From NCBI GenBank assembly GCA_903840265.1, contig CAIMFH010000178.1, positions 1-33,439 of the forward strand: a stretch of 33,439 bases of DNA. The letters are read 5' to 3'. Made by a program: the position numbers and the translations under genes. Below, piece after piece: positions 3,541-11,547 of the stretch. How positions within the stretch are numbered: position 1 is the stretch's first letter; each line of letters begins with the position of its first letter. This stretch comes from an uncultured Schlesneria sp. (GTDB taxonomy: Bacteria; Planctomycetota; Planctomycetia; Planctomycetales; Planctomycetaceae). The notes beneath the pieces were generated by a model that made no database searches, was not told where the DNA came from, and was given only the letters and a program-made list of their open reading frames with translations.

Positions 3541-3592
3541 GTGCCACGGTGATGGAGTCTTCGACATGGCCGTGTCTTCAACACCGTGACAC
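3541..3592. repeat. Dispersed hairpin repeat (intact copy)
   Basis: GTGCCACGGTG (3541-3551) pairs with CACCGTGACAC (3582-3592) at 10 of 11 positions, enclosing TGGAGTCTTCGACA and GGCCGTG. The same unit, with small differences, is found around 8783-9208, where it is split by a palindromic insertion. This copy lies between the start of the Gfo/Idh gene and the end of the HtrA-like gene and has no coding potential of its own. Confidence 0.7.
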
Positions 3593-7432: not shown

Positions 7433-7471
7433 TTGACTCGCCGATAGTGTATTACTATAGTAATGCACTAT
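7433..7471 (+). promoter_or_regulatory. Sigma-70-type promoter with YtrA-like palindromic operator over the start codon
   Basis: TTGACT (7433-7438) and TATAGT (7456-7461) are separated by exactly 17 bp. A 28-bp palindrome (7444-7471) pairs at 13 of 14 positions and covers the -10 box and the first two bases of the ATG at 7470. Transcription should start near 7468, leaving almost no 5' leader. The palindrome is the natural operator for the GntR/YtrA protein encoded immediately downstream, so autorepression is expected. Confidence 0.8.
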
Positions 7472-7865
7472 GGCAAGCGTCCCCATTCAGTTCGAGATTC
7501 ACCCCTCCTCCGGGGTCCCGATCTTTCGACAGATCATGGATCAAGTTCGGGCACAGGTGGCGAGTGGTCGGTTGAAAGCCGGCGATCTACTGCCCAGCGT
7601 TCGGCAGATGGGCGCGGAATTGCAGGTCAACATGATGACGGTCTCCAAGGCCTACAGTCGCCTGGAGGCTGAAGGGGTGCTGGAACGCGATCGCGGGATG
7701 GGGATGCGAGTCCGTACGGCTTCGCCTACCTCTGCCAGCGTCGGCGATCGGCAGCAAGAACTGCGAGAATTGGTTGATCACGTCGCGACGCGTGGTCTGC
7801 AGCTTGGACTGACAGATGAACAGATCGTGGCCGTCGTGAAAATGGTTCTTAAGGAGCGACGATGA
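7470..7865 (+). CDS. GntR-family transcriptional regulator, YtrA subfamily
   Basis: The 131-aa protein has an N-terminal winged helix-turn-helix (about 12-75) with PIFRQIMDQVRAQVASG, LLPSVRQMGAELQVNMMTVSKAY and a wing LERDRGMGMRV. A short helical C-terminus (about 90-131) replaces the usual large effector domain, which is the YtrA layout. YtrA-type repressors are normally the first gene of an ABC-transporter operon, as here: its TGA overlaps the ATG of the ATPase gene. No ribosome binding site is present before the ATG, and the predicted transcription start is almost at the start codon, so the mRNA is probably leaderless. The next in-frame Met (residue 23) would remove part of the DNA-binding domain. 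Confidence 0.9.
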   Translation: MASVPIQFEIHPSSGVPIFRQIMDQVRAQVASGRLKAGDLLPSVRQMGAELQVNMMTVSKAYSRLEAEGVLERDRGMGMRVRTASPTSASVGDRQQELRELVDHVATRGLQLGLTDEQIVAVVKMVLKERR

Positions 7866-8767
7866 TGAGCGAATTGATTATTGAATCGCAAAGCCTGCAT
7901 CGAAGCTTCGGTAGCACCGCGGTCCTGAAAGGGATCGACCTGTCCATCCAACGCGGTATGGTCGTCGGACTGCTCGGTGTGAACGGCAGCGGTAAATCGA
8001 CGTTGATCAAATGCCTGCTCGGCTTACTTCGCGTGTCGGCAGGTCAGGCTCGCGTCTTTGGGGAAGATCCGTGGGTCCTCAGCGGTGCCGCCAAAGCCCG
8101 GTTGGGATACGTTCCCCAGGATGTGAAACTCTATCCCTGGATGACCGTGACACAGGTGATCGGCTACACCGCCGCCTTCTATCCCAAATGGGATTTTGCT
8201 CTGTCCGAAAAGCTGATTCGCCGCTGGGATCTGGATCGAGACCGACGTGTCGGGCCATTGTCGCCGGGGCAACTCCAGAAGCTGGGATTGATCCTAGCCT
8301 TGGGGCACCGCCCTGATCTGCTGATCCTGGACGAACCAGTTGCGGCGCTCGATCCTGTCGCTCGCCGTGAGTTTCTAAAGTCCTTATTGGAAGTGACTCA
8401 GGATGAACAACATACCGTGTTGTTTTCGACGCACATCACATCGGACCTCGAACGAGTAGCCTCGCATGTGGCGCTCCTCAAAGAAGGCCGACTGGCGTTG
8501 TTCGAGGATCTCGACACGATCAAAGATCGCGTGAAGCGGTTGCGAATTTCCACATCGGGGCCTCTGCCGCACTCGTTCAGTGTGACTGGAGCATTGCGAA
8601 CCGAAGTCACAGGACAGACGGCTCTGGTCGCCGCCACGAACGTCAGCGATCGAATGGTGAGCGACCTCAGGTCGCAGTGGGATGCCGAGGTGGATGTCGA
8701 AGATCTAAACCTGGAAGAGATCTTCCTGGAACTCCATCAGGAACCCGATCGACGACCTGGACTCTAG
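7862..8767 (+). CDS. ABC transporter ATP-binding protein
   Basis: The 301-aa ATPase has Walker A GVNGSGKST (39-47), Q-loop YVPQD, signature LSPGQ (133-137; Pro in place of the usual Gly), Walker B LLILDEP (153-159) with D-loop AALDP, and switch His191 (STHI). A C-terminal extension of about 75 aa follows, common in ATPases paired with ABC-2-type exporters. AAGGAG (7851-7856) serves either ATG at 7862 or 7865; the former overlaps the stop of the regulator by 4 bp (ATGA), which suggests translational coupling. No permease follows directly. The next gene on this strand, 518 bp away beyond a palindromic insertion, encodes a polytopic membrane protein that may be its partner. Confidence 0.93.
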   Translation: MMSELIIESQSLHRSFGSTAVLKGIDLSIQRGMVVGLLGVNGSGKSTLIKCLLGLLRVSAGQARVFGEDPWVLSGAAKARLGYVPQDVKLYPWMTVTQVIGYTAAFYPKWDFALSEKLIRRWDLDRDRRVGPLSPGQLQKLGLILALGHRPDLLILDEPVAALDPVARREFLKSLLEVTQDEQHTVLFSTHITSDLERVASHVALLKEGRLALFEDLDTIKDRVKRLRISTSGPLPHSFSVTGALRTEVTGQTALVAATNVSDRMVSDLRSQWDAEVDVEDLNLEEIFLELHQEPDRRPGL

Positions 8768-8782
8768 ACGCCCGATGATCGG

Positions 8783-9208
8783 GTGCCACGGACTTGGAGC
8801 ATAGGTATCTACACATCTTACACGAGAGCAATCTGAATGATCGTCGGTCGGTTCATCGTCCTCAGGCCCAAGGGGCCGGAACATTGCCCAGCCAGGGCCC
8901 TTCGGCCCTGGAATTAGGCCAATAATTAAACTTCCAAAGGCCTGAAGGGCCGGACATTTCAGGAGGACGCCGACTTCAAAACAAGGGACTAATGGGCCGG
9001 CCCTTCAGGCCTCAAGAGATGTTAATAGAGATCTTATTCCCGGGGCCGAAGGGCCCCGGCTGGGCAAAGTTCCGGCCCCTTGGGCCTCATGACAGACGCC
9101 AATGCACCGCAAAACGAATACGCCGAGATGTGTAGATACCTACGGTTTTGGAGTCTTCGACAAGGCCGTGCTCTTCGTCGAGCACACTGCCTCCGAAGGC
9201 CGTGGGAC
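8783..9208. repeat. Dispersed hairpin repeat, interrupted copy
   Basis: The outer parts (8783-8799 and about 9148-9208) match the hairpin repeat at 3541-3592: GTGCCACGG then TTGGAG on the left, TTGGAGTCTTCGACA and GGCCGTG on the right. CCGTGGGAC (9200-9208) pairs with the left end at 8 of 9 positions. Joined at TTGGAG, the two halves reproduce the uninterrupted copy, so the sequence between them is an insertion. The repeat itself is noncoding. Confidence 0.65.
8800..9147. mobile_element. Palindromic MITE-like insertion element, 348 bp
   Basis: The element is bounded by a 6-bp direct repeat TTGGAG (8794-8799, 9148-9153). It carries near-terminal inverted repeats of 17 bp (8802-8818 with 9126-9142, perfect) and GC-rich inner arms centred near 8975. 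These include a perfect 19-bp pair (8864-8882 with 9069-9087) and a perfect 15-bp pair (8939-8953 with 8997-9011). The left arm contains a small hairpin of its own (8892-8911). No transposase-sized ORF is present, so it must be mobilised in trans if it moves at all. It separates the ABC ATPase gene from the downstream membrane-protein gene and accounts for most of this gene-free stretch. Confidence 0.72.
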
Positions 9209-9285
9209 TTTCACTCTAACGAACCCAATTCGACCAATGTGATCGACCGCCTTAGGCGAGCCTCTTTCAACGTGAGCAATCAATC

Positions 9286-11547
9286 ATGATTCGTCGCCTG
9301 GCCTATGTCCTGCTGAGTTATGCCACACGACCTTTGGTCTGGCCGCTGGCCGCAATTTACGTCGTTGTCCTCGGCATCTCACTCTGGACCGCCGCAAATG
9401 ACTTCTTTACTCATCGCGGACATCCATTGCAGACCGCGTACCCCGTCGTCGATACGACAAGCCATCGACTCGTGCTGTCTGACCCCAAGAGCCTCGCAGA
9501 TTTCGAAAATGCCAAGGTCGATCGGGGCGTCACCCAAGTCGAAATTCGCTGGCCGACCACCGAAGGACTCAGCGACGCGGCCATTCGCGCCGCCCTTCCC
9601 TTCTCACTCCGACACTTGCAACTACTGAAGACCTATCCGCAATTGAAATCTCTATCACTCTTCTCGTGTCGGCCACTTCATCCCGACGAGATCCAAGCCA
9701 TCGGAGACCTCACGCGACTGGAATCGCTGCAACTGATCGACTGCGACGTGCCCGCGGAACTGTGGCCGCAAATCGGCAAGTTGCCGCAACTGCGCTATCT
9801 CGAACTCAGCGGTTCGAACTTACGGGGCGGCTATCCGGAACTCGAAACGGTGACTCGACTCGAGACGCTGGTTCTTGGGACGATCGTTCATCGCGGGTTC
9901 ACCGAACACAATGCCCCTTTTTTGCCGCAGCTCAAGCGGTTCGCCAAACTGAAAACGGTCGTGATTCAGAATTACTATTCAACAGTCAAAAGTCCCGACG
10001 CGGACCGCGTAGTCCCGGCGCGACCCGCAGTTCATAACCCGCTGCAAGAAAACTTGGACGACATTCGCCTGATTCCGATGCTCCGGACGCTATACGTCAA
10101 TGACCAAATGGGGAGCTTTCCTGGCTTCACCGTTCTACAGCAAAAGCTGCCCGCAGTTCGCGTTCGCCCGGCCTACATCGACGTAGAGCGAATGTATTGG
10201 TTTCTGGTCCTGCTCTTTTTGAACAATGTGATCCTGATGCTGATCGGCTTGCAATTGCAGAGCCAATTTTCGCAGTCCTTCTCACGCTTGATACCGAATT
10301 ACACGGCACCCCATGTGATACCGGTTGTCTGTCTGTGGTTGTTTTGTATCGTCCTGCACTGCATTCCACTCTGGGTGGCTGGAGTTTCGGTGCCAGCGGC
10401 CATCTCGCTGAATCTGCTGTGCTGGAGTATCTCTTGCGGTTTCGGTGCCTTCGGGACTGCGATGAATTTGGAAGGTAGCCGCGCCAAAACTCTGATCAAG
10501 CCTTTGGCCATCGCAGCCGCCGCTTGGGGACCACTCGCCATTGTGGCTGTTCGCTGGAACACGTCGGCAATTGACTGGTACCTGCGCGGGTACGATCCGT
10601 ACTTCACTTGGTTCTTGATTGTCAGTGGGATTGTGATCTGCACGATGGCGCTACGACAGTCATTGCAGACGAACGCCATTTGTCTGGAACGCGGCGTCAG
10701 TTCCCCACCCATCAGTCTCGATCCGGTCGCCATGTCGGCCTGGCAACAGTCGATTTATACGCAGCAGGCCGGTGGCCGGCGTGGGTGGTTCTCCTGGTTG
10801 ACGACGTCCGATGTGGATCGACTAGTCGCTCGATCGCCGCAGTCTGGATTCGTTTGGCGATCGAGGTTGTGGATCGCTGGCAATCCCGTCACCGGCAACG
10901 TGATGTACCAAGTCGCCTTGGCAACCGCAGCCTTGATCTGGATCACTCATCGGCTGAGTACCAACGGGGCCAACGAATGGTTTTCGTTCGAAAACCCAGC
11001 GATGCTGATGAGTTCCTTTTTGTTTCCGGACATGAGCGTGATTGTGGCGGCCAGTGTTTGGCGTGGTCGTCGCAAGCTATTTGCTGCGGAATCGCTGCGC
11101 CCGCTTTCGCGAACGGAATTTGCGCGGCAGATTGCTCAAGCGATCGCTTGGGATCTAATCCCATTGGCTCTGATCTACTTGACGGTGTTGATCGGGTACG
11201 TCATCGCATCGAATCCTGAACGATGGTCCTGGGCCTGGACCATCGGCATGTCACTGGTCTTCGCGGCACGCTGGCTGGCTGTCTTTGGCTTGTTGCTCTG
11301 GACAATCGCGATTCGACGCGATTGGGTCTTGATCCTGGCAGCATTCGTCGCCGCCTACGGACTGCTCTTCGCAAATATCGGCATCATCTTCGTGCAGGCG
11401 CGGGTTTTTGATGTGGGTAGCCTGCCGTCCGATTTGCCAGACATTGGCGTGCCAGGATTGTTCCTCTGTGCGGCGTTGCTCGGTTTAGCCGCCAGCGCCA
11501 TCACGCACTTCGGCTATCGCCGCTGGCAATCGATTGAACTCATTTAA
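9286..11547 (+). CDS. Polytopic membrane protein with leucine-rich repeat domain, possible ABC permease partner
   Basis: The 753-aa protein has one N-terminal membrane segment (about 14-34), then a soluble domain with leucine-rich repeats (about 105-275, for example LKSLSLFSC, LESLQLIDC, LRYLELSGS, LETLVLG). About ten further hydrophobic segments follow (303-325 onward to the end), with a soluble loop around 470-530. ABC-2-type permeases often have one membrane helix, a large extracytoplasmic domain and then a helix bundle, and the gene lies downstream of a YtrA regulator and an ATPase. It may therefore be the membrane component, with the LRR domain binding a partner outside the cytoplasmic membrane. 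No sequence motif proves this. There is no clear ribosome binding site before the ATG at 9286. Confidence 0.75.
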   Translation: MIRRLAYVLLSYATRPLVWPLAAIYVVVLGISLWTAANDFFTHRGHPLQTAYPVVDTTSHRLVLSDPKSLADFENAKVDRGVTQVEIRWPTTEGLSDAAIRAALPFSLRHLQLLKTYPQLKSLSLFSCRPLHPDEIQAIGDLTRLESLQLIDCDVPAELWPQIGKLPQLRYLELSGSNLRGGYPELETVTRLETLVLGTIVHRGFTEHNAPFLPQLKRFAKLKTVVIQNYYSTVKSPDADRVVPARPAVHNPLQENLDDIRLIPMLRTLYVNDQMGSFPGFTVLQQKLPAVRVRPAYIDVERMYWFLVLLFLNNVILMLIGLQLQSQFSQSFSRLIPNYTAPHVIPVVCLWLFCIVLHCIPLWVAGVSVPAAISLNLLCWSISCGFGAFGTAMNLEGSRAKTLIKPLAIAAAAWGPLAIVAVRWNTSAIDWYLRGYDPYFTWFLIVSGIVICTMALRQSLQTNAICLERGVSSPPISLDPVAMSAWQQSIYTQQAGGRRGWFSWLTTSDVDRLVARSPQSGFVWRSRLWIAGNPVTGNVMYQVALATAALIWITHRLSTNGANEWFSFENPAMLMSSFLFPDMSVIVAASVWRGRRKLFAAESLRPLSRTEFARQIAQAIAWDLIPLALIYLTVLIGYVIASNPERWSWAWTIGMSLVFAARWLAVFGLLLWTIAIRRDWVLILAAFVAAYGLLFANIGIIFVQARVFDVGSLPSDLPDIGVPGLFLCAALLGLAASAITHFGYRRWQSIELI

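Follow-up and report, generated by a model that had tools for sequence, protein, structure and literature searches.

The window, that is, the whole stretch of 33,439 nucleotides analysed here, belongs to contig C178 in the draft assembly of a genome (G000) from Schlesneria, a genus of the Planctomycetota, and was compared with its sister genome in the same genus, the MAG Schlesneria sp. RYN_441 (G012). Three genes on the forward strand frame the locus: a GntR-type regulator upstream (7470-7865; PF00392, E = 5e-17), the ATPase of an ABC transporter (7862-8767; PF00005, E = 2e-24), whose G012 orthologue is 96% identical and served as the anchor for locating the empty site, and a downstream gene encoding 753 aa (9286-11547), for which only weak leucine-rich-repeat matches were found. 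The spacer between the last two genes holds a REP-like hairpin repeat split by a palindrome, as read directly from the sequence. The left piece, GGTGCCACG (8782-8790, forward strand), starts as do the 161 REPs of the genome and is unbroken at the orthologous site of G012; the right piece, TCTTCGACAAGGCCGTG (9154-9170, forward strand), was identified from the sequence and the same G012 site. The first-pass annotation had described a repeat split between 8783 and 9170, with TTGGAG at 8794-8799 and 9148-9153, and an unbroken member of the repeat family at another place in the window (3541-3592, forward strand), all of which was seen on direct reading.

The palindrome had been given as 348 bp long with 17-bp near-terminal inverted repeats. 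The insert measures 345 bp (8800-9144, forward strand), and its inverted repeats are in fact terminal and 19 bp long, with 18 of 19 positions matching: CATAGGTATCTACACATCT at 8800-8818 on the forward strand, and CGTAGGTATCTACACATCT, read inverted, at 9126-9144 on the reverse strand. No listed ORF of at least 100 aa lies inside, and the element is short and without a transposase gene of its own. Folded as single-stranded DNA, it reached -110.4 kcal/mol, compared to -49.2 (sd 4.1) in 100 dinucleotide shuffles (z = -15), so that the palindrome is not due to chance. The strong fold, together with the position between the ATPase gene and a same-strand downstream gene, would suit a regulatory RNA structure or an attenuator of the ABC operon. 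Against this, the Rfam search gave no match, the promoter and terminator scan of 8700-9320 gave no such site, the palindrome is missing at the G012 locus and at six other congeneric loci read on the right side (L087, L088, L090-L092, L095), and copies of it occur at many other places; a regulatory identity is therefore barely credible. A side effect of the insert on expression is conceivable.

The repeat that was split reads GGTGCCACGGNNTTGGAGTCTTCGACAAGGCCGTG and forms an imperfect hairpin; there is a second subtype, GGTGCCACGGTCTCACCGTCTTCGGTGTGGCCGTG, and each of the two is found as singlets and as inverted pairs. In being a short and abundant palindrome with this arrangement it is like REPs, REPINs and BIMEs, from which it differs in that its ends showed neither an unpaired GTAG foot nor an unpaired CGTC foot (the rows examined start GGGTGCCACGG) and no cognate transposase was identified; given the lack of such a foot, it is termed REP-like only, and REP is used below in this sense. 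Allowing up to two mismatches, GGTGCCACGGNNTTGGAG occurred 161 times in the window's own genome and once for the reversed control, and with at most one mismatch it was present in 10 of 15 congeneric genomes. The fold of the 52-bp repeat at 3541-3592 was only modestly better than that of its shuffles (z = -1.5; 15 of 200 shuffles equal or better). For 8783-9208, 80 matching pieces were found in the window's own genome, and when this genome was pooled with the 99 relatives searched, 7 of them all had related palindromes, two of the 7 (G088, G091) having only 30-bp matches with E > 1e-4.

The insert is flanked by a direct repeat of 9 bp, not of the 6 bp initially proposed: GACTTGGAG at 8791-8799 and GTTTTGGAG at 9145-9153, both on the forward strand, are identical at 7 of 9 positions, TTGGAG being their conserved part. 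This length is backed by other copies of the element, and the right-hand 9-mer recurs at the corresponding locus of G012, where the ATPase orthologue is followed by the unbroken GGGTGCCACGGTTTTGGAGTCTTCGACAAAGCCGTG and then by a matching downstream gene start. Excision of the insert had been expected to restore the repeat, and a close match did result, but the cut proposed (8800-9153) leaves 3 of 36 positions different from the G012 site, compared to 1 of 36 when the insert is excised and the right-hand 9-mer is kept. The G012 REP is likely, though not certain, to be the same ancestral copy as the interrupted one, because the spacer around it is otherwise much diverged.

A second empty site was found for copy L002, whose flanks abut in G012 with a 10-bp overlap and without the element, exactly the element and one 9-mer being missing. 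The empty site reads CTCCAAGAC, from which each of the two G000 copies (CTCCAAGTC, CTCCAAAAC) differs by a single base; two mismatches in nine, as in the window, could mean that there was no duplication, and L002 shows how such differences may originate. At a third locus (L005), an inverted REP pair that is complete in G012 is represented in G000 by its two outer halves with the element between them, which suggests an insertion followed by an adjacent deletion. In both L004 and L005, the interior of an inverted REP pair is gone, and the element lies precisely between the two outer halves that are left. The REP pieces at these two loci are thus in inverted rather than direct order, which requires an extra deletion step and counts against the reading preferred below. 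L007 also has no element in G012, but its spacer differs and the locus is uninformative as an empty site. The left flank common to L003 of G000 and L192 of G012 indicates an insertion older than the split of the two genomes.

Allowing up to three mismatches, the 18-bp end occurred 16 times in the window's own genome, 30 times in G012 and 12 times in G013, and was absent from G011, G001 and G006. The same ends thus lie at different places, as had been anticipated for a mobile element. Since the palindrome abuts REP sequence at most ends in the genus (24 of 29), REP and palindrome might instead be one decaying ancestral unit, with the unbroken REPs as its deletion products. That reading is already disfavoured by the empty sites, including that of L002, where what is missing is no more and no less than the element and one 9-mer. 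REPs also far outnumber ends (161 versus 16 in the own genome), two REP subtypes receive insertions, and in other genera the same ends lie within unrelated sequences. Palindrome and REP were thus found to be separable, with empty REP sites for three copies, and common descent as one unit is very improbable. The idea that TTGGAG belongs to the longer inverted repeat of a single unit was likewise dropped, given these empty sites and a perfect 9-bp duplication in another copy (L083).

The duplications expected at other copies were found. Among the 58 two-ended copies fetched by then (48 outside Schlesneria and 10 within), perfect direct repeats were seen at 9 bp (n = 10) and at 10 bp (n = 13), with none at any other length from 4 to 13 bp. 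All 23 lay outside Schlesneria, so that a perfect 9- or 10-bp repeat flanked 23 of the 48 copies of other genera, compared to 19 of 5000 mismatched flank pairs. A full-length Acinetobacter copy (L286) had a 9/9 duplication, and L314 one of 10/10. Within Schlesneria, the ten copies matched at 7, 7, 6, 5, 3, 3, 2, 2, 2 and 2 of the 9 positions. A gene-bearing copy, L083, which stands outside this series since its left end is diverged (12/19) and is counted as the eleventh, carries GTCTCACCG on both sides, a 9/9 duplication in the second REP subtype. Only 3 of the 11 two-ended Schlesneria copies therefore reach at least 7/9 (the window copy and L002 at 7/9, L083 at 9/9), while the other 8 have 6/9 or less, which counts against a MITE; three or four of the Schlesneria copies look rearranged or eroded past reading.

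The preference for REPs was measured on 29 ends that had been located in G000, G012 and G013 by no criterion other than the end sequence: a REP piece lay within 45 bp of 24 of them, compared to 163 of 3000 random 45-mers from the same loci. A first count of 35 out of 48 had included loci partly fetched for their REPs, and the unbiased count is the one retained. Insertions hit both REP subtypes. Outside Schlesneria, GGCTTGCC, which we take to be the REP core of pseudomonads, or its complement lay within 30 bp of 17 of the 48 two-ended copies, compared to 47 of 4800 random windows. Whether hairpins in general are preferred as targets was also considered, but 31 joined targets folded only slightly better than random 50-mers from the same loci (means -7.6 and -6.2 kcal/mol; p = 0.03), and no such preference is claimed. 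Two loci (L177 near 389, L178 near 370) hold REPs with GTTTTGGAG GTTTTGGAG in tandem, which could mean that an element left and both copies of its target stayed behind; slippage explains the pattern equally well.

As recommended in the first-pass annotation, a full-length relative that shares the termini and encodes a transposase was sought, by searching six genomes for the end; this led to an IS of 1,370 bp in G012 (L227; C3:1-1370) with a 428-aa ORF. The left end of the insert is identical to that of the IS, and its right end matches the right end of the IS at 18 of 19 positions. The best model for the IS transposase was the IS4 family model NF033590 (E = 4e-31), at 108.5 bits against a cut-off of 160; the Tn5-type DNA-binding domain PF14706 scored 22.1 bits against a cut-off of 24, and comparison with Tn5 transposase structures (PDB chains) gave an E-value of about 2e-9. 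Because its contig begins at the IS, the flanking duplication is unreadable there. Further IS ends at the edges of three G012 contigs (C10, C11, C12) indicate that the IS is probably multi-copy in this genome. At E <= 1e-20, the transposase was found in only one of the 15 congeneric genomes (G012), and it was not found in the window's own draft assembly. The last 350 positions of the NCBIfam model NF011312, named for the flagellar regulator FlhF, also match the IS4 transposase, and this model thus seems to contain transposase sequence.

Beyond the genus, the exact 18-bp end occurred in at least 119 stretches of named genomes and, among the matches listed (80 titles), in Pseudomonas, Acinetobacter, Betaproteobacteria, Methylomonas, Fuerstiella and Schlesneria. 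Some of these stretches adjoin transposases of about 33-45% identity, and 60 plasmid records carry a relative, every one below 60% identity. Pseudomonas and others also hold elements of 150 to 850 bp that share these ends (L258-L365, e.g. L259, L263, L305 and L331), many of them with no transposase match within the fetched stretch. The IS may already have a name; its end sequence was not found in the literature searched.

The interior of the insert is not derived from the IS4-type IS; its two arms are what flanks a Y1 (HUH, IS200-like) transposase gene. The left arm (approximately 8862-8965, forward strand) aligned with the multi-hairpin flank 5' of the Y1 gene in L083 and L011, and the right arm (approximately 8992-9094, reverse strand) with the inverted multi-hairpin flank 3' of that gene. 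In L083, the gene lies between such arms and the same outer ends as in the insert, and is broken by a frameshift near its N-terminus; in two gene-bearing elements of G012 it is open (L228, 876 bp; L212, 779 bp). A 73-bp remnant of the 3' part of this gene survives in L004 (82% identity), and the C-terminal residues survive in L233; no remnant was found in L001-L003 or L005-L007. Given these gene-bearing and remnant copies, the window element is best read as a Y1 unit after gene loss. The arms belong to the Y1 unit itself, as they are present, though diverged, around a related Y1 gene at C8 that lacks such outer ends. Multi-hairpin arm units near REPs with no adjoining gene seen were also observed (L086 from about 2564, L062, L145), and one apparently stand-alone arm unit sits in G012, in the spacer that corresponds to the window site. 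Four Y1 matches (PF01797) were found in the window's own genome, one of them in L083.

The Y1 protein, of about 150 aa with a Y1_Tnp domain (PF01797), has the motifs DH[IV]H and Y---Q--HH, and the motifs of subclass 1.2 were found in 34 of 34 distinct loci when L was allowed in the HUH motif. The available part of Quentin et al. (2018, PMC6006769) gives this subclass as DH[IV]H, WQ and Y---Q--HH, with 'no' in its REP column. By its motifs the protein fits TnpA Y1 subclass 1.2, and it departs from the absence of REP or terminal secondary structures that goes with that subclass in having inverted flanks at most loci. Y1 matches occurred in 59 of 120 genomes of the family Planctomycetaceae, and 30 loci were picked by protein similarity, one from each of 30 genomes (L385-L414). 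Inverted flanks scored at least 18 at 24 of them and at least 25 at 20, the six loci without inverted flanks being L388, L390, L391, L393, L408 and L412; four extra loci chosen for their known arms each scored above 35. The control, which paired the upstream side of one locus with the downstream side of another, had a mean of 11.9 (sd 6.5) and a maximum of 45, because the arms of relatives resemble each other, and single scores thus overlap with it. By eye, many arms have three hairpins; when five arms were folded, three separate hairpins did not result every time.

With the arms being the flanks of a Y1 gene, and with arm units lacking the outer ends in the genus, the palindrome could have been moved by the Y1 transposase as a REP-like unit through single-strand transposition, the outer ends being its recognition structure. 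Target duplications and terminal repeats of this kind are not expected of IS200-type transposition, whereas the insert family has 9-bp duplications and 19-bp ends in common with a DDE-type IS; moreover, such outer ends are absent at C8, where the related gene has its arms. The Y1 transposase was demoted as mover once the IS with the same ends had been found, and its having moved the element is unlikely.

The insert is very probably a MITE that was moved in trans by a Tn5-like DDE transposase of the IS4 family into a REP and whose interior came from a Y1 unit. The ends common with the IS, the 9- or 10-bp duplications and the REP locations argue for a MITE of a REP-targeting IS4-type family. Such a transposase would cut at the CATAGG ends (CATAGGTATCTACACATCT) and insert into REPs at GNNTTGGAG with a 9-bp stagger, duplicating 9 bp of the target, and would mobilise in trans other elements bounded by CATAGG ends. 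A Y1 gene with inverted multi-hairpin arms would at some point have come between IS4-type ends, and this unit would then have lost its gene and been reduced by decay to the present 345 bp. The locus is a nest of three palindromic layers, namely the REP target, the IS4-type ends and the arms of the Y1 unit. With neither the IS transposase nor an intact Y1 gene of the closest type found in its own genome, the window copy is probably a fossil, now inactive. The points that weigh against a MITE at this locus are the 7/9 duplication, the transposase scores below the curated cut-offs and the IS transposase not having been found in the own draft assembly. With the ends, duplications, full-length relative and empty sites taken together, the initial suggestion of a non-autonomous mobile element lying in another dispersed repeat is upheld, with the corrections given above.

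Insertion sequences in REPs are known, and so are MITEs and units in which long inverted repeats accompany a tyrosine transposase. According to the part of Tobes and Pareja (2006, PMC1525189) consulted, ISRm22 of Sinorhizobium meliloti, also of the IS4 family, inserts into REPs at a fixed point with 6-bp direct repeats, and unequal repeats are attributed to recombination between copies. Likened by description and not by sequence, the family of the insert is similarly IS4-type, REP-inserting and producing direct repeats, and differs in its 9 bp, its planctomycete host, and the non-autonomous nature and foreign interior of the insert. The same partial source gives a 9-bp target duplication for Tn5. 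Tn5/IS50 (IS4 family) thus resembles the insert's family in this length and in a related transposase, but has another end sequence and low sequence similarity, and the REP preference belongs to the insert's family. TIRtrons/TIRYT and REPtrons, in the portions seen of De Nocera group (2013, PMC3733652) and Quentin et al. (2018), consist of a tyrosine transposase gene with long inverted repeats that are partly self-complementary and are also found where the gene is missing, features shared by the Y1 unit and its arms. The unit differs from TIRtrons and REPtrons in its subclass 1.2 protein, for which the consulted part of Quentin et al. (2018) gives no REP, and in the DDE-type ends that bound it in three elements.

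The literature searched held neither a DDE-type MITE with the body of a Y1 unit nor flanking arms for subclass 1.2. Chances are about even that the element is a hybrid in which a Y1 subclass 1.2 gene and its arms became cargo of a REP-landing DDE transposon, and that in planctomycetes the arms are the cognate repeats of subclass 1.2, not recognised as such until now. If so, two unrelated transposition systems would be joined within one element. The locus shows an IS4-type family inserting into REPs of a planctomycete, with before-and-after loci from sister genomes and an 18-bp end that recurs without a single change in Pseudomonas and other distant bacteria. It also provides a candidate for the cognate repeat of a transposase subclass that is listed as having none.
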